Shown: piece by piece, positions 1,641-56,589 of the stretch
Layout of the letters: every line of letters begins with the position of its first letter
Position numbering within the stretch: position 1 is the stretch's first letter
Translations under genes and position numbers: made by a program
The notes under the pieces: model-generated
Database searches by the model: none
Told to the model about the DNA's origin: nothing
Seen by the model: the letters and a program-made list of their open reading frames with translations, nothing else
NCBI RefSeq assembly: GCF_004114375.1
Contig: NZ_CP034692.1
Span: 2,418,001-2,482,000, forward strand
Origin: Halorubrum sp. BOL3-1
GTDB lineage: Archaea; Halobacteriota; Halobacteria; Halobacteriales; Haloferacaceae
DNA length: 64,000 nt
Reading direction: 5' to 3'

Positions 1641-2148
1641 CGTCACGGTGCTCGTGAGCGTCCTGCCGGTCGTTGGGCTGGCCGCGCCCGCGGTCGGCGG
1701 CGGCGTGGCGAGCTGGACCGACGAGTCCGCGGCCGCCCGCGGCCCGCGGATCGGTGCCGCGACGGGGGCGCTGGTCGCGCTGCTCTCGCTGCCGCTGACG
1801 TTTCTCGCGGTCTGAATCGCGGCTTCCGTGTCGCCCGCGGCGACCGTTGGCGTCCTCGAACTCAGGCTGTTCGGCGCGGCGTACGTCGTCGGCAGTCGGA
1901 CGCTTGGCGGGTATCTCGCGGACCGGACCGCCGCGGACCGCAAGTGCTCTTGGGCAGCTGACAGTGACGCGGCGGTCGAATCTGCGATCGAGCGCCTCAG
2001 GTACCGCTACGTCGAGGGAGAGCTCTTCGACGCGGAGTTTGAGCGCCGCCTCGACAGGCCGGTAGCCGCTGACGACGACTACAACCGACTCGAGCCGGAC
2101 TCCCGATCCGAGCGATCCGACCCGCCGGTGCGCGAACGCGAGCGCTGA
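1635..2148 (+). pseudogene. Broken DUF5518/SHOCT-like membrane protein gene
   Basis: One reading frame runs through this stretch. It has a hydrophobic pair (VLVSVLPVVGLAAPAVGGG, then GALVALLSLPLTFLAV), a TGA at 1813-1815, then in the same frame more hydrophobic sequence (LFGAAYVVGSRTLGGYLA) and a SHOCT-like end (IERLRYRYVEGELFDAEFER). SHOCT domains are short C-terminal modules seen in many haloarchaeal membrane proteins. The frame is unbroken on both sides of the single stop and the 5' end is missing, so this looks like one decayed gene. The part from the GTG at 1828 could still be expressed as a 106-residue protein. Confidence 0.5.
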
Positions 2149-2469
2149 TTTCCGCCCCCGGGAACCCCAACACCGAACGTAGCTTCGCCTCCTGTCGACC
2201 GCACTCCTTCGACTTCGACCGACAACCGGCCTCGCCGATCACTAGATTTGCGGACATCTCGCCGCCGATCTCCGACGGATCCATATCTGATACTGCCGTC
2301 GAAACATAGTTAATAAATACTGTAACTAATTTGCTGTAAATAAATCAAAAAACGCAGGACAGCAGTTGTTTATCAGACCGGATAACCGGGAGCGTGATCT
2401 TAAGTATGAATTCCCCTACGCTAACGATAACGCCCGCCGGGCAGGCCGGGGGCCAACGCAACACAACCA
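2149..2469 (+). promoter_or_regulatory. AT-rich upstream region of the archaellin genes
   Basis: There is no credible gene in these 321 bases. The centre (about 2280-2400) is far more AT-rich than the surroundings and holds several TATA-like stretches, including TTAATAAATA near 2309 and TCTTAAGTATG near 2398. The latter would place a transcription start about 45 nt before the archaellin ATG. The exact promoter cannot be fixed from sequence alone. Confidence 0.4.
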
Positions 2470-3063
2470 ATGTTCGAAACCATACTGGACGAGGAAGAGC
2501 GCGGTCAAGTGGGGATCGGGACGCTCATCGTGTTCATCGCGATGGTGCTGGTGGCGGCGATCGCCGCCGGCGTCCTGATCAACACCGCCGGGTTCCTCCA
2601 GACGCAGGCGGAAGCAACGGGCGAAGAGAGTACAAGCCAGGTCTCAGACCGGCTTCAGATTGTGAGCACATCAGGCGATGTCGATAGCAACCAGAATATC
2701 GAAAATGTGAGTTTCATCGTCGCCACCTCTCCTGGATCGGGAGCGATTGATCTCAATCAAACGACCGTCGAATTCGTCGGCGAGCAGGGTCAAGATCGAT
2801 TCGAAGTGGATTACAGTGAGGTTGGAGAGGGCATCGTCGGGACTGATGGTGGTGTTTTAACCGACAACAGTGATCGGGCTGAGCTGAAATTCCAGCTTAC
2901 TACTCCCAACGTGACCTCGGGATTCAACGAGTACAATAGTCAACCGCTTGCAGAGGACGAAACGGTTACGGTGACATTCACTACCTCATCAGGCGCCTCC
3001 ACAGTCAAGGAGATCCGGGTTCCGACAACGATCACGTCTGATGACAGCTCAGTGAGGCTGTGA
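2470..3063 (+). CDS. Archaellin (first of a tandem pair)
   Basis: A structural subunit of the archaellum filament, 197 residues. The N-terminus holds the class III signal peptide ending EERG, followed by [19 protein letters not shown], the hydrophobic helix that archaellins use for assembly. The prepilin peptidase (PibD/ArlK) would cut after the Gly. The rest is Ser/Thr/Asp-rich with NxS/T sites (ENVS, NQT, NVT) that could be N-glycosylated. The length is normal for haloarchaeal archaellins. It is directly followed by a second archaellin and probably transcribed with it. The archaellum motor genes lie 7-15 kb downstream. Confidence 0.93.
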
Positions 3064-3065
3064 AA

Positions 3066-3683
3066 ATGTTTGAGAAACTACTCAACAAGGAAGAACGCGG
3101 TCAGGTGGGAATCGGGACGCTCATCGTGTTCATCGCGATGGTCTTGGTGGCAGCGATCGCTGCTGGTGTCCTGATCAACACGGCTGGATTCCTCCAGTCA
3201 CAGGCTGAGTCGACCGGTCAGGAAAGTACGGACCTTGTGTCAGAGCGGATTGAGGTCTCGAGTACGACTGGGATCGTTGGTTCCGCAGACACTGGTAATC
3301 TCAGTAAGATCCATGTCGTGGTCACCACTGCGCCCGGTGCTGGAGACATCGATCTAAATGAAACCGTGATTCAGGCGGTGGGTCCGGAAGGCGAAGAAAG
3401 CCTGACGCTGGACAAGGATAGCAGTGCTACAGCGGGCAGCGGAGAATTCGGTCTCTTGGACCACTCCGAAGCTGGCACAGCGGTCCTCAACGACGACAAC
3501 GAGGAGTTCACGATTACGCTCGATCCGGAGAGTACACCCTTCGGTACGAGTAACGGAGCTGACGCCTTCGGTGAGGGAGACGATGCGACGCTCGACATCG
3601 TCTCGCCCGCGTCCGCGACAACGTCGGTTGAGCTCAACTCGCCCGACCTCTACAACACCGACGGCGAAGCGGTCCGGCTCTAA
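3066..3683 (+). CDS. Archaellin (second of a tandem pair)
   Basis: A second filament subunit, 205 residues from the ATG at 3066. A GTG at 3060 overlapping the previous stop would add only two residues; the ATG gives [12 protein letters not shown], matching the first archaellin, so I chose it. The signal peptide and hydrophobic helix ([18 protein letters not shown]) are almost identical to the first copy, including at the DNA level. The C-terminal two thirds diverge, which is typical of duplicated archaellins kept for different filament properties. Sequons include GNLS and LNET. Confidence 0.93.
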
Positions 3684-3765
3684 CGAGCCTCGCACAGCGC
3701 GGTAACCACCTTCGGCGGCTCGGCCGCCCGCAACACCTATTTTACGGCGCGCGCTACCACGACTC

Positions 3766-4533
3766 ATGAGCGACGACGACGCGATACCGGCCGATCCGGA
3801 GGAACTCGACTTCACCGACGACGAGAGCGTCGTCGAGATCGGGGACGGCCGCTACGTCGTCGGGACGAACGGCCGCCCCAACGTCGGCCGCTCGCGCGGA
3901 CAGCGGCGCGCGCCGCCCGAGGATGATTCCGACTTCACCGCGGCCGACCCGGCGAATCCATCGGACCGCCGCCCCGCCGGCGACGATCCGCGGGCGAGCG
4001 CGGTCGGCGCCGGCGAACGCCGCCAGCCCGCCGGCGGACAGTCCGACGGTGGTCAGCCTCCCGGTGGGCAACCCGGTGCCGAGCGACAATCTGCCGGAGA
4101 ACCGCCCGGAGGCGGGCAGCCGCCGCCGAACGCCGCCGGAGGGCAGCGCCGAACGCAGCCCGCGGCGGAGGGCGGCGCGGTCGACCGGCAGGCCGTGAGT
4201 CGGTGGCTGGCCGACTCTTTCGACGGCGACGGGTTCGACTACGGCATCGACGCGACGCTCCACGCGAACGGCGACACTACCCGGCAGCGGACCGTGTCGA
4301 ACGACGTGACGGCGACGTTCGACACGCTCCTCACGTGGTTCGCGTCGAACGCCGGCCCGAGTTCGCCGACGCCGGAGGCGATCGGCCTGCTGCTCGCCGC
4401 CTCCGAGACCACCGTCGACGTCCCGCCGGTGATGATAAAACGGTTCGCGGCGAGTCAGGGACTCTCCGCGAGCGACAGTATCGGTGACTTGGTTCGCGCC
4501 GCCGAAGAGCAGGGCGGGTTCCGGATCGAATAG
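3766..4533 (+). CDS. DUF7500-like protein of the archaellum region
   Basis: A 255-residue soluble acidic protein. It has a conserved-looking N-terminus (about residues 10-35, containing LDFTDDESVVEI and GRYVV), a low-complexity Pro/Gly/Gln/Arg linker (about 45-135) and a folded C-terminal domain (about 138-255) with a helical end. From memory this matches the haloarchaeal DUF7500 family, which often lies beside archaellin genes. It follows the archaellins on the same strand after about 80 nt, with a TATA-like CTATTTTA about 27 nt before the ATG, so it may have its own promoter. Its function is unknown; a regulatory or accessory role in motility is only inferred from position. Confidence 0.6.
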   Translation: MSDDDAIPADPEELDFTDDESVVEIGDGRYVVGTNGRPNVGRSRGQRRAPPEDDSDFTAADPANPSDRRPAGDDPRASAVGAGERRQPAGGQSDGGQPPGGQPGAERQSAGEPPGGGQPPPNAAGGQRRTQPAAEGGAVDRQAVSRWLADSFDGDGFDYGIDATLHANGDTTRQRTVSNDVTATFDTLLTWFASNAGPSSPTPEAIGLLLAASETTVDVPPVMIKRFAASQGLSASDSIGDLVRAAEEQGGFRIE

Positions 4534-5338
4534 AGCCATTTCTTGAGTCCACTCCCTAATATGGCGTGTTTCAGGGACGATCCGGACCGCAGTATATCCT
4601 ACTAAGAAAGTGAGTAGAACAGCAAGTTCGTGTCTCACTAGTGCGACTGTCACCCAACTCCGAGCTGTTGCGCATCGTGAATCCACTGTAAAGTGGCGCG
4701 GTAGTGCGTATCACCGCTGATCCGCTCGACAGTGTCGCACCGAGTTGGCACGGCAACCACCCAGTACAATATTCTGTGGGCTGACACAACGATCGGAAAA
4801 CGGCGGATCACCCCCGAAAGTTGGGGGGTGATCACCGAGATCTCACAGTTCAGGTAGGGTAAATAAACAGAGACACCTGCTCTGTCATGGCCCCTCAGGT
4901 ATGACACCTGATACAGGCAATGGCGTTGCCGGCTAGCGATTTCGGCGCGACCGGACACCTCGGGTGCGATCCGGATTGACTCACACCGACCACGCGACAC
5001 TCAACACCATACTGGTCGTCATTTTTTTCACCCGTTCAGGAGGTGATCTTGCGGCGGGACGATTCCCTGAACCCGCACGATCTGCGGGCAGACGCTCTTG
5101 AATACGCTTTGTGGGGTGACCTGCGGGGTGATCCGTTCGTGAACTGAGACTTCCATTGCGAATTCTATCCGATCTTGATTACCGAAGGCACCGCGGTGGA
5201 CACCGGCGGAAACAGGGGACCGTCCCACAGGCACAGTTGCCACTCGCATCAAGCTGTGCGTAGGCGGTGGGTGAACCCAGCTACCACGCCCTCGACGTCT
5301 GACATACGAGACCGTCCGAACCGTTTGTACCCAGTCGC
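4534..5338. other. Long gene-free stretch with decayed appearance
   Basis: About 800 bases without a convincing gene. Frames on both strands are broken by frequent stops. It contains a perfect 10-bp inverted repeat at 4806-4833 and, at 5041-5050, a GGAGGTGATC string matching the full anti-Shine-Dalgarno complement, followed only by a 32-codon TTG frame ending at 5147. Base composition is lower in GC than the flanking genes. It may be remains of a mobile element, but I recognise no transposase. Confidence 0.4.
4806..4833. repeat. Perfect 10-bp inverted repeat
   Basis: The arms GATCACCCCC (4806-4815) and GGGGGTGATC (4824-4833) flank an 8-base loop. It lies in a gene-free region, so it could be a terminator hairpin, an operator or the end of a lost mobile element. 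No T-run follows it on either strand. Confidence 0.6.
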
Positions 5339-48075: not shown

Positions 48076-49473
48076 TCACGACCAGTCGCCGAGCGAGGCC
48101 TGCCCGTCGCCGGTCCGGCGCTGGTCGTCGCCGCTCCCGGTGGCGGCGTCCGCACCCTCGTCGCCGCGGTCCGGCGGGCCGCCGACCCAGTCGGTGAGCT
48201 TGCCGCCGTCGCCAGCGTCGTCTCCTCGGATTCGGTCGCCGTCGCCGTCCGGCTCGAACCCGCCGAGCGTCGCCTGGTCGGTCTCCGCGAAGTCGAGCTT
48301 GGAGACGCGGACGCCCAGTTTACGGACCCGGGTCTCGTCGAACTCACCGAGCAGGTCCAGCGCCACCTCCTCGACGAGGTCCGGGTCGTCGACGGGACCG
48401 GGGAGGCTCCGGGCGCGGGTGTTGACGTCGAACGGCGGTTCGACCGCCTTGATCCCGATGGTGCGGTACAGGCAGCCCCGCTCCCGGGCGCGGCGGGCCA
48501 CGTCGGCGGCCAGCGCCGACACCGTCTCCCGCTTCGTCGCCTCGTCGGCGGTCGTCGGCAGCGCCGACTCCCGCGAGAGGCTCTTCGGGAGGCCGGTCGG
48601 CGTCACCTCGCGATCGTCGTCGCCGGCGGCGCGCCGGGATAGCTCCGGGCCGCGCTCGCCGAGGGGCTCGGCGAGCCGGTCGCGGTCTGCGGTCGCCAGG
48701 TCGCCCGCGGTCTCGACCCCCAGCTCCGCCAGTTTCCCCTCGGTGACGGGACCGACCCCGTGGACGTCGGCGGTCGGCAGCGGCGCGAGGAACCCGGCGA
48801 CGGTCCCCGGCGGCACGACGACGAGGCCGTCCGGCTTGTCGGCGTCGCTGGCGACCTTCGCGGCCGACATGTTCGGCGCGACGCCGACGCTCGCCGGGAC
48901 CCCCGCCTCGCGCTCGATGCGCCCTTTGACGTGGCGGGCGTACCCCTCCGCGAGCGTCCGCGCTTCGGCGGGACCGGCCGCGCCGCTCGGCGGCGGGTCA
49001 GCAGGGTCGTCGCCGGCGACCGTCCACGCGGTCCGGTCGGTGACGTCGAGGTACGCCTCGTCGATGCTCACCTCCCGGCGGGTGTCGGCGCAGTCGCGCA
49101 GGACGGCCTTCACCTCGCTCGCGACGTCCTCGTAGAAGCCGAGGTCGACGGGGAGGTACCGGCCGGTCTCCTCGGGGTCGGGCGCGTCGGGGTCGTCGGG
49201 GTCCGCGTCGGCGCGGCGGGGGAGCAGCTCTAAGGCCTCGGAGATCGGCATCGCGCTGTCGACGCCGAACGCTCGCGCCTCGTAGCTCGCGGTCGCGACC
49301 GCGCCGACCGACTCGCCCGGCTCGTACCCCATGCCGACCACGACGGGTTCGCCCGCGAGGTCGGGACGGCGCAGCCGCTCGCAGGAGGCGTAAAAGCAGT
49401 CCATGTCGACGTGACAGACGACCCGATCGGGCCCGTCGTCTCTCTCGTCGTGAGTGAATTTGTCCAACGACAT
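48076..49473 (-). CDS. dinB: DNA polymerase IV with element-derived 5' end
   Basis: A 465-residue Y-family polymerase for translesion synthesis. Catalytic residues are visible in CHVDMDCFYA (D23, D25) and SIDEAYLDVT. It has helix-hairpin-helix sequence (ADVHGVGPVTEGKLAELG), a little-finger domain, a long acidic tail and a PIP-like end QASLGDW. From residue 19 on the gene is chromosomal. The first 18 codons (MSLDKFTHDERDDGPDRV) come from the integrated element and replace the original MTGGRNAARETL...DERDDAPDRV start, now stranded at 56589. The frame is intact, so the enzyme is probably still made, but from an element-borne start. Confidence 0.93.
   Translation of the reverse strand: MSLDKFTHDERDDGPDRVVCHVDMDCFYASCERLRRPDLAGEPVVVGMGYEPGESVGAVATASYEARAFGVDSAMPISEALELLPRRADADPDDPDAPDPEETGRYLPVDLGFYEDVASEVKAVLRDCADTRREVSIDEAYLDVTDRTAWTVAGDDPADPPPSGAAGPAEARTLAEGYARHVKGRIEREAGVPASVGVAPNMSAAKVASDADKPDGLVVVPPGTVAGFLAPLPTADVHGVGPVTEGKLAELGVETAGDLATADRDRLAEPLGERGPELSRRAAGDDDREVTPTGLPKSLSRESALPTTADEATKRETVSALAADVARRARERGCLYRTIGIKAVEPPFDVNTRARSLPGPVDDPDLVEEVALDLLGEFDETRVRKLGVRVSKLDFAETDQATLGGFEPDGDGDRIRGDDAGDGGKLTDWVGGPPDRGDEGADAATGSGDDQRRTGDGQASLGDWS
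49333..49419. other. Left attachment repeat (att) within dinB
   Basis: An 87-bp sequence identical to 56425-56511. It encodes VCHVDMDCFYAS through GEPVVVG of polymerase IV. Beyond it, toward the element, a further 31 bases match the chromosomal version with five differences, and the encoded peptide DERDD-x-PDRV is kept. Confidence 0.92.
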
Positions 49474-49591: not shown

Positions 49592-50623
49592 ATGTCCAAG
49601 TTAGAACCCATCACGCCACGGGACGCATTAGAACTGTATTGCGACGACATGGAGGGGGAACTATCCCCAAACTCCGTCCGACAGAAACGGTATCAACTCT
49701 CCAAGTTCGTTGAGTGGTGCGAGGGAATAAACGCCGACGACCCACGGATTGAGAACCTCAATAATATCACGGGCAGAGACTTCACCCGCTTCAAGAATTG
49801 GCGTAGCGAGGGGATCAACAAAGTCACGCTGCGGACGAATCTCTCGGCGCTACGGTCGTTCATGCGCTTTTGCGTCTCCGTTGATGGTGTTGACCCTGTA
49901 ATCCCTCAGAAGATCAACGTGCCGACGTTAGATACCTCTGAGAACCACAACAGCGAACACATTAGCGCCGATGAAGCAACGGAGATTCTGAGCTACCTGA
50001 ATCAATTTGAGTATGCGTCAATGGATCATGTGCTGTTCAAGCTCCAATGGACCACTTCCATGCGAATGAGTGGGTTACACAGTCTCGATGTCGGGGATGT
50101 CGACGCCGCAGAGAGGACGCTTTCAGTCGTCCACCGCCCCGATCAGGGAAGCCGACTGAAGAACGCCGACGACGGCGAACGTGTCGTGACAGTCGACGCA
50201 GAGACGGCGAGAGTCGTCGCTGATTACATCGAACACAAGCGGACACCCGTTGAGGACGACCACGGTCGTCGCCCACTGTTCTGTTCACGATACGGGCGTA
50301 TGTCGAAACAGAACCTCAATAAGCGGATCTACCGTGTTACGTCTCCCTGCTATACGTCTCGGGGATGTCCGTCCGACAAAGACCCACAACAGTGCGAACA
50401 CGCAGGCTCCTATGACAACTACGTTACCTGTCCGCACAATATCCGCCCCCACGCGATTCGGGGCGGGAGCATTACGTACTGGTTACGCAACGACGTTCCG
50501 AAGCAAGCAGTCGGAGATCGGGTTAACGCTTCGATGAAAACCCTATCACGGCATTACGACGAGCGGAGTGAACAGGAAAAGGCGGAACAGAGACGGGACT
50601 TCTTCGAGAACGACGAGACGTAA
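49592..50623 (+). CDS. Tyrosine recombinase (XerC/D-like integrase)
   Basis: A 343-residue recombinase. The N-terminal SAM-like core-binding domain covers about residues 8-110, with LYCDDMEGELSPNSVRQKRY. The catalytic domain has Arg in SMRMSGLHSLD, a Lys in SRLKNADDGE, HAIR (HxxR) and the nucleophile Tyr in SRHYDERS. A cysteine cluster (CYTSRGC, QQC, TCPH) just before the HxxR box is typical of one haloarchaeal integrase family and may bind metal. It lies 172 bases inside the left repeat, the usual integrase position. A T-rich run follows its stop. Confidence 0.93.
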   Translation: MSKLEPITPRDALELYCDDMEGELSPNSVRQKRYQLSKFVEWCEGINADDPRIENLNNITGRDFTRFKNWRSEGINKVTLRTNLSALRSFMRFCVSVDGVDPVIPQKINVPTLDTSENHNSEHISADEATEILSYLNQFEYASMDHVLFKLQWTTSMRMSGLHSLDVGDVDAAERTLSVVHRPDQGSRLKNADDGERVVTVDAETARVVADYIEHKRTPVEDDHGRRPLFCSRYGRMSKQNLNKRIYRVTSPCYTSRGCPSDKDPQQCEHAGSYDNYVTCPHNIRPHAIRGGSITYWLRNDVPKQAVGDRVNASMKTLSRHYDERSEQEKAEQRRDFFENDET

Positions 50624-51350: not shown

Positions 51351-51536
51351 GTGACAAATTCTGCGTTAGAAGCCGTCGTAATTTTATTACTCGTGGAAAT
51401 GCTATATGTTGATATGCTGTCGGAAACTGAGGAGATCGCGTTCCAAGCGGCTCGAGATATGGGAGCCGTTGTCACAAAACACGAAGCCCGTCGTCGGCTC
51501 GACCGTGCCGAAGCAGACAATATATATGAAAACTGA
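51351..51536 (+). CDS. Small protein of the element
   Basis: A 61-codon frame starting with GTG. Alternative ATG starts inside give about 46 residues (MLYVDMLSETEEI). The C-terminal part is amphipathic and charged (ARDMGAVVTKHEARRRLDRAEADN). It could be a small regulator, but there is no family match and the start is uncertain. Confidence 0.4.
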   Translation: MTNSALEAVVILLLVEMLYVDMLSETEEIAFQAARDMGAVVTKHEARRRLDRAEADNIYEN

Positions 51537-51844: not shown

Positions 51845-53578
51845 TTAACCACTTTTCTCCAACAGACCGAGAAACTCGTACCGAATATCCCATGGAATAT
51901 GAATGTTAGCAGGAATCTCCGTACCAATAACAATGTACTCCCGTTCGTTCAGCTGATCCATAGCAGCCTTTGCCTTCTGAATCACTTGATGACGGTCGTA
52001 TAGGTGACCTTTCACCTCAATAACATACTTATTTGTGACAAAATCTGGTGTGTATGTTCGACCATTGCCGTAACTGATCTCCATCGATTCGTATTCATAA
52101 TCAATATCCGCGTTTAGAAGCATTTCAGCAACGTCTATTTCCCACGTGGAGCGGACAATATGGTCCAAATGTTCGGGGTCGTATTTTTTATTCGGGTCGA
52201 ATCCAGATGCTACGATAGCACTACTCCATGACCCGAATCTCTGTGTATACACTGACCCGCTAAATGCGCCGTTTTCATTCATGTCACTTCGCGTCGGTGT
52301 TCTACCCAGTTCCTCACCGAGGTGCTTGAGTTCCTCAATTAGATCTGACCGAGGGATATCCCGTCGTTCGGTCGGCTCAATGTCTGCTGCTTTGAGAGCC
52401 TCGTTCCACGTATCAAAAGTAGACATGTGAGTCGTTGAATCAAACTGGCCGTACCGATCCATATCTCGTCGCCCTGGCGTCCTGCCAACTTGCTCTTGGA
52501 CTGATTTGAGTTCAGTAATCAACTCTGATCGAGGTATATTTGTTCGGTTATTAATGTCGAATCCAGCCTCACGGAGAGTAGCATTCCAAGACCCGAAGGC
52601 CGTTCTGTATGTTGCCCACCCAAATTCACCATCCCTTTCCATCTCGACAGCTGTTGGCGTATGGCCGATCTCGTCGGCCAATCGACTTATTTCTCGCAGC
52701 AGCTCGGGCTTTGGGATATCATTCCGATTATTGGGAGCAAAACCAGCCTCTCGGAGAGCTTCGTTCCATGAACCAAATGACCTGTTGTACGTTGTGACCG
52801 CGAAGCGCCCGTACTGGCTCATCTCACTTGCCGTGGGGACTTTCTTATGTTCTCTTTTCAGCCGTTGTATCTCATCAAGTAGGTCCGAATCGTCTATGTT
52901 ACCTTCTTTATTCGTTCCGAGGTTTGCTTCTCTTAGTGCTTCGTTCCATGATCCGAATTCGGTAGAGTACGTGCTTGCGCCGAACTGACCCCGTTCTTCC
53001 ATCTGATGAACTGTTGGCGGCTCACCGAGGTCATCAGCGAGCCGTTGGAGTTCATCTATCAGTTTCGAGGCTGGTATTTCTCTCTGTTTTCCTAATTCAA
53101 GCCCTGCCTCCTGAATGGCTGAATTCCACGTTCCAAACGCGATAGAATACGTAGATGGAGCGTAGTTCCCTTTCTCAGCCATATCTCGCGAGGTTGGAGT
53201 TTCACCGATTTTGTCATAAAGTCGCCTCAATTCAGCTAGGAGTTCGGAGTCTGTTACGGAGGATTGCTTATTTACGGACAGATCGGCCTGTCTAAGTGAC
53301 TCATTCCACGAGCCGAACTTATCCTGGTACGTTTTTACCGAAAATCTACCACACTGGTTCATGTCACGCTGAGTAGGAGCACTCTCTTGTTCAGTAGCAA
53401 GTTTTTGAAGTTCCTCGATCATAGCCTCCTTAATTTCATCTTCAGAGTGGGATTTGCCCCTATGAATCCCCCTACCCTTGTTTGAGTCGAAGACCCTACC
53501 ACAGATTTCACAATTAAACGTCTCTTCTTTGCTCCCCGAGTCTGGTAGAAACTCGGAGATAGAAGTCTGGTTTTTCAT
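51845..53578 (-). CDS. Zinc finger, 7x HNR repeat, PD-(D/E)XK nuclease
   Basis: A 577-residue protein. Residues 23-44 form a C2H2 finger (C23, C26, H39, H44). Residues 49-468 are seven repeats of exactly 60 residues. Their conserved Trp lies at 91, 151, 211, 271, 331, 391 and 451, with a TP(T) turn, a Met, a TY pair and FGSWN-x-ALREAG in most. This is the homing-endonuclease-associated repeat (HNR). Residues about 470-577 are a nuclease-like domain with E485, PD at 511-512 and EVK at 521-523, the PD-(D/E)XK triad. HNR repeats are predicted DNA-binding units, so the protein is probably a site-specific endonuclease. The target and role (homing, defence or element maintenance) are unknown. Confidence 0.85.
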   Translation of the reverse strand: MKNQTSISEFLPDSGSKEETFNCEICGRVFDSNKGRGIHRGKSHSEDEIKEAMIEELQKLATEQESAPTQRDMNQCGRFSVKTYQDKFGSWNESLRQADLSVNKQSSVTDSELLAELRRLYDKIGETPTSRDMAEKGNYAPSTYSIAFGTWNSAIQEAGLELGKQREIPASKLIDELQRLADDLGEPPTVHQMEERGQFGASTYSTEFGSWNEALREANLGTNKEGNIDDSDLLDEIQRLKREHKKVPTASEMSQYGRFAVTTYNRSFGSWNEALREAGFAPNNRNDIPKPELLREISRLADEIGHTPTAVEMERDGEFGWATYRTAFGSWNATLREAGFDINNRTNIPRSELITELKSVQEQVGRTPGRRDMDRYGQFDSTTHMSTFDTWNEALKAADIEPTERRDIPRSDLIEELKHLGEELGRTPTRSDMNENGAFSGSVYTQRFGSWSSAIVASGFDPNKKYDPEHLDHIVRSTWEIDVAEMLLNADIDYEYESMEISYGNGRTYTPDFVTNKYVIEVKGHLYDRHQVIQKAKAAMDQLNEREYIVIGTEIPANIHIPWDIRYEFLGLLEKSG

Positions 53579-53833: not shown

Positions 53834-54088
53834 GCCGTCAGACGATACCTATCCTTTCGGTACTACCCCCACAGTCTATCGGGGGAGATCACCGATCCAC
53901 GCCCCTGATTGAACCCACCAATAGTGGTGTATCTCCATTTGCGGGAATGTGGGGAGAGTCGCAAATCTTTGTCCTATTCCACAACTAACGTTCGTGGAAC
54001 AAAGCCGATATTCGTCTGTTTTACCTGTTTAAATTGCGGCTTCCTACTAACCGCAAACACTATTGTGGTGGCATCGAGTGGTAAAGCC

Positions 54089-54676
54089 GTGAATCTCAAA
54101 CAACACGACACCACGGACGGAATGAAGGTATGGCTCTCGGAGTCAGATACCGAACGGTTACTCGATACTGCCGAGACGACGGAACAACGGATCGCCTTTG
54201 CCCTAGCTGTTCGGTGTGGTCTTCGGTCCCACGAGGTACTACAGGTGTCGCCGTCAGACGTTGTTGAGACGGACGCAGGGGCGATGTTGACCGTGGAGCA
54301 TGGGAAAGGTGACAAGTACCGAGAAACGCCGCTGCCGCCGACTCTGCGGACGCAGATAGAGACTGTCGATGACATGCGAGACGACGACAGCACCGTCCCA
54401 ATTATCTCCGTAACGACCACACAATCACTACGCAATTGGATTCAATCGGCTCGGGAGACACTTGCCGACGAGACAGACGACGACCGATGGACGAACGTGT
54501 CGTTCCACGACTTACGTCGAACGTGGGCAACGTCGTTGGCGTCAAAGGACGTTGACCCGTTGGTAGTGTGTAACTGGGGCGGGTGGTCGGATCTCGATAC
54601 GTTCTTAGAACACTACAAGGGGACGTATTCACCCGAAGCGCAGCAACGGGAACGTGGAAAAGTTGAGTGGCTATAG
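54089..54676 (+). CDS. Second tyrosine recombinase, short catalytic-domain form
   Basis: A 195-residue recombinase from GTG at 54089 (NLKQHDTTDGMKVWLSESD). Catalytic residues: Arg in RCGLRSHEVL, Lys in GKGDKYRETPLP, HDLRR (HxxR), Trp in NWGGWSDL and nucleophile Tyr in HYKGTYSPE. It lacks a full core-binding domain, like other short haloarchaeal integrases I remember. The frame extends upstream to 53909 without recombinase features. It is distinct from the first recombinase in sequence and domain length. Confidence 0.85.
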   Translation: MNLKQHDTTDGMKVWLSESDTERLLDTAETTEQRIAFALAVRCGLRSHEVLQVSPSDVVETDAGAMLTVEHGKGDKYRETPLPPTLRTQIETVDDMRDDDSTVPIISVTTTQSLRNWIQSARETLADETDDDRWTNVSFHDLRRTWATSLASKDVDPLVVCNWGGWSDLDTFLEHYKGTYSPEAQQRERGKVEWL

Positions 54677-56424: not shown

Positions 56425-56589
56425 GCCGACCACGACGGGTTCGCCCGCGAGGTCGGGACGGCGCAGCCGCTCGCAGGAGGCGTAAAAGCAGTCCATGTCG
56501 ACGTGACAGACCACGCGGTCGGGCGCATCGTCTCTCTCGTCGCCAGCGCCCGGGAGCGTCTCCCTGGCGGCGTTTCTCCCGCCTGTCAT
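56410..56589 (-). pseudogene. Stranded original 5' end of dinB
   Basis: On the minus strand an ATG at 56589 opens MTGGRNAARETLPGAGDERD, continues DAPDRVVCHVDMDCFYASC across the right repeat, then runs into the element and stops after GGFCC at 56410. It is the native start of dinB, separated from the rest by the insertion. It could still be translated as a 59-residue fragment. Confidence 0.85.
56425..56511. other. Right attachment repeat (att)
   Basis: An exact copy of 49333-49419 (87 bp). To its right is the native dinB start and promoter; to its left the element. Crossing over here would regenerate the unbroken original dinB. Confidence 0.92.

Follow-up and report, generated by a model that had tools for sequence, protein, structure and literature searches.

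Within a window of 64,000 nucleotides from Halorubrum sp. BOL3-1 (contig NZ_CP034692.1, positions 2,418,001 to 2,482,000), the gene at 51845..53578 on the minus strand codes for a 577-aa protein consisting of a C2H2-like finger, seven 60-residue repeats and a PD-(D/E)XK domain, in this order. It raises the question of what an array of equal repeats does when joined to a nuclease domain, and whom the cutting would serve. A first reading, made from the sequence alone, had suggested a modular sequence-specific endonuclease acting either in the homing of its host element into dinB or against competing elements and viruses.

Gene and domain layout

The gene was delimited by its ORF, its translation and Pfam matches and has full-length orthologues in the genomes G204, G347 and G395. 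Compared with the 63% orthologue it has pS 0.79, a saturated value, and pN 0.21, and it is intact and constrained.

The repeats, defined by DNA repeats, Pfam matches and repeat comparison, all lie on the minus strand and cover residues 48-107 (repeat 1, 53258..53437), 108-167 (repeat 2, 53078..53257), 168-227 (repeat 3, 52898..53077), 228-287 (repeat 4, 52718..52897), 288-347 (repeat 5, 52538..52717), 348-407 (repeat 6, 52358..52537) and 408-467 (repeat 7, 52178..52357). Their tryptophans, W91, W151, W211, W271, W331, W391 and W451, are separated by six intervals of 60 residues, and at the DNA level the seven copies are spaced by exactly 180 nt. The Pfam family PF18780 (HNH_repeat), the “homing endonuclease associated repeat” (HNR), matches seven stretches with a total of 448 bits (cut-off 26; E 1.5e-137), which places the array far beyond chance and bears out the seven equal repeats of the sequence-only reading.

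The proposed C2H2 finger (53447..53512, minus strand) stands as far as its residues C23, C26, H39 and H44 are concerned, all of which are present and invariant in the orthologues, although its Pfam score is weak (zf-C2H2_4, 13.6 bits against a cut-off of 27, E 0.12). At the N-terminus, residues 4-10 (QTSISEF; 53549..53569, minus strand) form a PIP-box-like motif, Qxx[I/L]xxF being the pattern of a PCNA-interacting peptide. Q4 and F10 are invariant in the three-orthologue alignment, and the pattern recurs in all four full-length orthologues, in a broken copy from Haloquadratum and in a version of the protein from Halonotius with a different array (see below). QTSISEF may act as a PCNA tether. 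The protein encoded by dinB in the same window has the C-terminal end QASLGDW, which resembles this motif.

The nuclease domain and its relatives

The C-terminal domain (residues 468-577; 51848..52177, minus strand) belongs to the T7 endonuclease I-like PD-(D/E)XK nucleases, as a profile of 17 of its relatives matches the T7 endonuclease I chains in the PDB with E 1.7e-7; profile searches thus upheld both the repeat family and the nuclease fold of the sequence-only reading. With 17.4 bits against the gathering cut-off of 29.1 for PF05367, the domain is a distant relative of that family and not a member. The alignment of the 17 relatives gives E480, D512, E521 and K523 as the conserved catalytic set. 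Three of these, D512, E521 and K523, had been named correctly before, but the fourth, E485, was wrong since it varies among the relatives, and the proper glutamate is E480, which is part of a WE motif and invariant in all 17. D512 is near-invariant. It is changed in a NUMOD3-type relative (L071:1489-1824) with TPGF instead of TPDF, which is probably a decaying copy. Across the orthologues of the HNR nuclease all the catalytic residues are invariant.

The domain is present in 46 of the 391 genomes of the class, and the frames read among these 46 are largely genes for the RFC small subunit interrupted by inteins, in which it forms the endonuclease part behind NUMOD3-like modules. Such inteins occur in many haloarchaea, and the source genome too has a match in an RFC-intein-like frame. 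RFC inteins of Halobacteria have been described previously (PMC4071816). The same domain was found in free-standing NUMOD3-type proteins, some of them with a finger, and, together with a NUMOD3 match, in the halovirus gene HVTV-2 gp37. The viral gene adjoins thymidylate synthase in HVTV-1/2 and HCTV-5 and is unmatched there in HCTV-1 and HCTV-16; scans of IMG/VR gave no viral homologues. In the RFC intein endonuclease and HVTV-1 gp37 the nuclease domain is 31-36% identical to that of the HNR nuclease and has the same catalytic residues, but both use NUMOD3-like modules, and the intein lies inside splicing blocks, whereas here the protein is free-standing and carries seven HNR repeats.

Judged by sequence, these relatives (inteins, NUMOD3 proteins and viral gp37) are the company of homing endonucleases, and the catalytic domain is common to the HNR nuclease and the endonucleases of mobile RFC inteins. 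An endonuclease within an intein cuts the intein-less allele. As the substrate of T7 endonuclease I is branched DNA, it is by analogy with the intein relatives that sequence-specific cutting is attributed to the HNR nuclease. A free-standing homing endonuclease derived from a catalytic domain resembling a Holliday junction resolvase is already known in F-CphI (PMC6083498). The HNR nuclease is likewise free-standing with a resolvase-like catalytic domain, although F-CphI has the Endo VII motif and the protein described here that of T7 endonuclease I (PD-(D/E)XK).

Structure, exchange and predicted DNA reading of the array

The AlphaFold2 model built with 24 sequences (mean pLDDT 81.6, pTM 0.30) shows each repeat as four helices of 15-7-8-7 residues, with a dip of confidence in every linker between repeats, and the two-repeat model built with 73 sequences reaches pLDDT 86.6 and pTM 0.68. 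Helix 2, the turn and helix 3 of the repeat model have the spacing of a helix-turn-helix (HTH). The array is thus modelled as HTH beads on a string with loose linkers and not as a solenoid; no rigid solenoid was seen, and the protein-binding solenoid that would have spoken against the sequence-only reading is absent from the prediction. Foldseek searches returned no match below E 0.001, TetR and Myb HTH proteins and PD-(D/E)XK nucleases being among the weak matches without significance, so the fold assignment of the repeat rests on the model and the helix spacing. Solved structures matching the HNR repeat by sequence included none that was convincing, and a lectin neck (E 0.001) was rejected as a homologue because the match covers short helical stretches only.

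Candidate DNA-reading positions were sought by comparing the repeats within proteins and, between three orthologues (63%, 51%), each repeat with its counterparts. Of the 60 unit positions, nine (2, 23, 24, 27, 34, 35, 38, 39 and 58) vary between repeats yet are fixed for each repeat (permutation p<0.005), with position 33 following at p 0.0055. Seven of the nine fall within 23-39, the stretch from helix 2 to helix 3, and exposed positions of helix 1 drift freely. At variable positions the per-repeat effect is 0.289 in 22-39 versus 0.125 elsewhere (U test, p 0.013). The turn and the recognition helix carry a net charge of +0.76 per repeat and are the sole basic part of an otherwise acidic protein, helix 1 having -1.62. 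It is suggestive that fixation within the HTH marks the residues that read DNA, although this is not general, as the signal recurs in three other HNR families and is absent in two.

The array invites comparison with TALE and BurrH proteins, in which equal-length two-helix units of 33-35 residues form one continuous superhelix. Equal repeat length and a few variable residues as candidates for specificity are common to both, but here the units are four-helix HTH beads of 60 residues on linkers predicted with low confidence, and there is no single hypervariable residue pair. We know of no recognition code for HNR repeats.

Proteins with PF18780 arrays were matched in 228 of the 391 class genomes. 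Most of the tandem PF18780 proteins fetched have a C-terminal HNH domain, and the others consist of the array only or end in a zinc-ribbon-like or recombinase-like part. In three of the loci (L012, L014 and L021) 8-9 HNR repeats precede a C-terminal part with no Pfam match which by eye resembles a degenerate tyrosine recombinase. The source genome itself has array-only HNR proteins of 8 and 4 repeats at L039:5104-7533, with a stop codon and a short gap between them, and the nearby gene 1943-4681 codes for a large, secreted-protein-like product which looks like an S-layer glycoprotein. The haloarchaeal HNR-HNH proteins resemble the HNR nuclease in the repeat, the tandem architecture and the C-terminal position of the nuclease, and differ from it in that the nuclease here is T7-endonuclease-I-like PD-(D/E)XK and is accompanied by the finger and the PIP-like N-terminus.

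Only Halorubrum and Haloquadratum yielded the fusion of an HNR array with a T7-endonuclease-I-like domain. The search of the 391 class genomes gave the source genome, two other Halorubrum (H. halodurans and H. vacuolatum, the latter being G347) and a broken copy in Haloquadratum walsbyi J07HQW1, and a search of the genus added a Halorubrum MAG (G395). The broken copy is a frame-broken HNR nuclease at L043:8283-9632 (G313), and a further nuclease-domain fragment lies in the same strain at G313:C1:2074994-2075331.

Two kinds of exchange among the relatives bear on the function of the array. The first is replacement of the whole array. The gene adjoining the HNR nuclease in H. halodurans codes for six classical HTH repeats on a nuclease 58-60% identical, and another HTH-array version was found in Halonotius pteroides, whose N-terminal MSDQSTLSEF is common to the HNR version. 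The genes for this combination of six HTH repeats with the T7-endonuclease-I-like nuclease lie at L041:7052-8506 and L115:4900-6336, one of which directly adjoins the HNR version. Since a classical HTH array here takes the place of the HNR repeats, there is strong circumstantial evidence, by analogy, that the HNR array would bind DNA as well.

The second is exchange inside the array. The G347 and G395 alleles occupy the same locus and differ at 0.7% of the bases in codons 1-200 and at 2.9% in codons 338-589, but at 34% in codons 201-337, where synonymous sites are near saturation. This pattern indicates that repeats 3-5 came from a diverged allele, with the register kept, into otherwise near-identical alleles. 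The T5orf172 homing endonucleases of phages, in which DNA-binding modules are arranged as beads on a string, recombine between modules and swap domains (PMC10448857), offer the closest precedent for the exchange of repeats 3-5, although they combine their own nuclease with zinc-finger modules and belong to phages, whereas PD-(D/E)XK is joined here to HTH beads in archaea.

Modular reading of DNA is thus the most likely task of the array, and the enzyme would be a sequence-specific endonuclease of the homing type. Of the original proposal, the modular array on a nuclease holds: the HMM matches, the HTH-like prediction, the HTH residues fixed per repeat, the basic recognition helix, the internal exchange of repeats and the replacement by a classical HTH array all point that way. 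The part that found no support is homing of the element into dinB by the nuclease.

The dinB element and the role of the nuclease

The nuclease gene belongs to a roughly 7-kb element at the 5′ end of dinB, bounded by a 118-bp duplication of dinB repeated at the element's far end, with the left att copy at 49333..49450 in the 5′ part of dinB and the right copy at 56425..56542; the two are 96% alike, and the site is uninterrupted in other species. The element encodes a tyrosine integrase (49592..50623, plus strand; Pfam Phage_integrase, E 8.7e-10), a second recombinase-like gene (53909-54676), a pilin-like gene and a gene with a relative in a Natrinema virus. The 61-aa ORF at 51351-51536, which is 42-43% identical over about 50 residues to ORFs of the dinB elements L095 and L096, is a small gene conserved among these elements.

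In three other species (L097, L095 and L096) the dinB site is taken by elements with integrases 80% and 54% identical, which are accompanied by other cargo and by no nuclease, which makes the nuclease itself cargo. In Halorubrum, tyrosine-integrase elements whose cargo differs have in this way settled repeatedly at the 5′ end of dinB. That the nuclease brings the element into dinB, as first suggested, is therefore not supported, in view of the element's own integrase and att repeat and its nuclease-free relatives, and a requirement of the nuclease for the insertion was rejected on the same grounds. The search for an empty site of the nuclease gene gave no clean case, the flanks of the G347 copy being non-syntenic in relatives. 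A related element in G394 (L136, G394:C26, 480-930) was considered and rejected as such a site, because the loss of about 5 kb, the nuclease region included, has fused the start of its first integrase gene with the end of the second recombinase gene, which makes it a deletion remnant.

We consider it reasonably probable that the protein is a free-standing homing-type endonuclease which travels as cargo of the tyrosine-integrase element and is not its dinB inserter. The seven HTH beads would lie along the DNA and jointly specify a long target, a part of the proposal which is well supported, each bead contributing with the first part of helix 2 and with its recognition helix, and with the finger and perhaps the PCNA-binding peptide assisting. 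The T7-endonuclease-I-like domain, probably acting as a dimer in the manner of T7 endonuclease I, would cut the duplex at or near the target, as its catalytic residues and intein relatives suggest, and repair from the nuclease-bearing copy would copy the gene or its surrounding region and so spread the gene, as expected from its lineage.

Homing is the better-supported role, and the main alternative is interference, in which the array would recognise sequences of rival dinB elements, of plasmids or of viruses, and the cutting would protect the element or the host instead of spreading the gene. The location of the gene in an integrative element agrees with it, as do the surroundings of the H. 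halodurans copy (integrases, serine recombinases and a dGTPase-like gene), the competing elements that other species have at this dinB site and the internal exchange of repeats, which an arms race would favour. The nuclease lineage, however, is common to inteins, which are selfish; no immunity partner was seen; and PADLOC recognised no convincing defence model, giving only partial matches to PDC-S68 (E 2.7e-4, over 58 residues, and 4.1e-4), on which grounds a known anti-phage defence system was rejected. Interference is accordingly regarded as rather unlikely.

Much less probable is a nuclease that resolves branched DNA during recombination of the element, with the array only bringing it to element or host sites. 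The closest solved relatives are indeed those of the T7 Holliday junction resolvase, and a PIP-like motif would suit work at forks, but tyrosine recombinases do not need a resolvase, the intein relatives argue for cutting of intact duplex, and the gene is absent from related dinB elements. Marginally less credible still is an array that serves as a scaffold for protein or RNA, or as a regulator that binds DNA, with an incidental or dead nuclease, since, although array-only HNR proteins such as those of the source genome imply that arrays can serve without a nuclease, the catalytic residues are invariant across orthologues, the model consists of separate HTH beads and not of a solenoid, and the nuclease also occurs with classical HTH arrays in place of the HNR array.

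As a free-standing homing-type endonuclease, the protein, carried by a small mobile element of a salt-loving archaeon, would exemplify a natural and hardly studied type of modular DNA-targeting nuclease, among whose relatives both beads and whole strings of beads have been exchanged. The literature searched makes just one passing mention of the PF18780 family despite its matches in 228 of the 391 class genomes. HNR arrays usually sit on HNH nucleases, and the new part is the fusion with a T7-endonuclease-I-like domain, a type of domain now linked to both intein and free-standing homing. Tentatively, HNR arrays may even represent a further natural programmable DNA-recognition system beside TALE-like repeats and zinc fingers, in which each bead would read a few bases through positions 23, 24, 27, 33-35, 38 and 39, recombination would swap beads and thereby give a new target, and the effector may be HNH, T7-endonuclease-I-like, recombinase-like or none, here with the addition of a PCNA tether. 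The exact register, the named candidate specificity residues and an allele pair differing mainly in repeats 3-5 are at hand, and this pair, together with the same nuclease on two types of array, makes modular DNA reading by HNR repeats directly testable.
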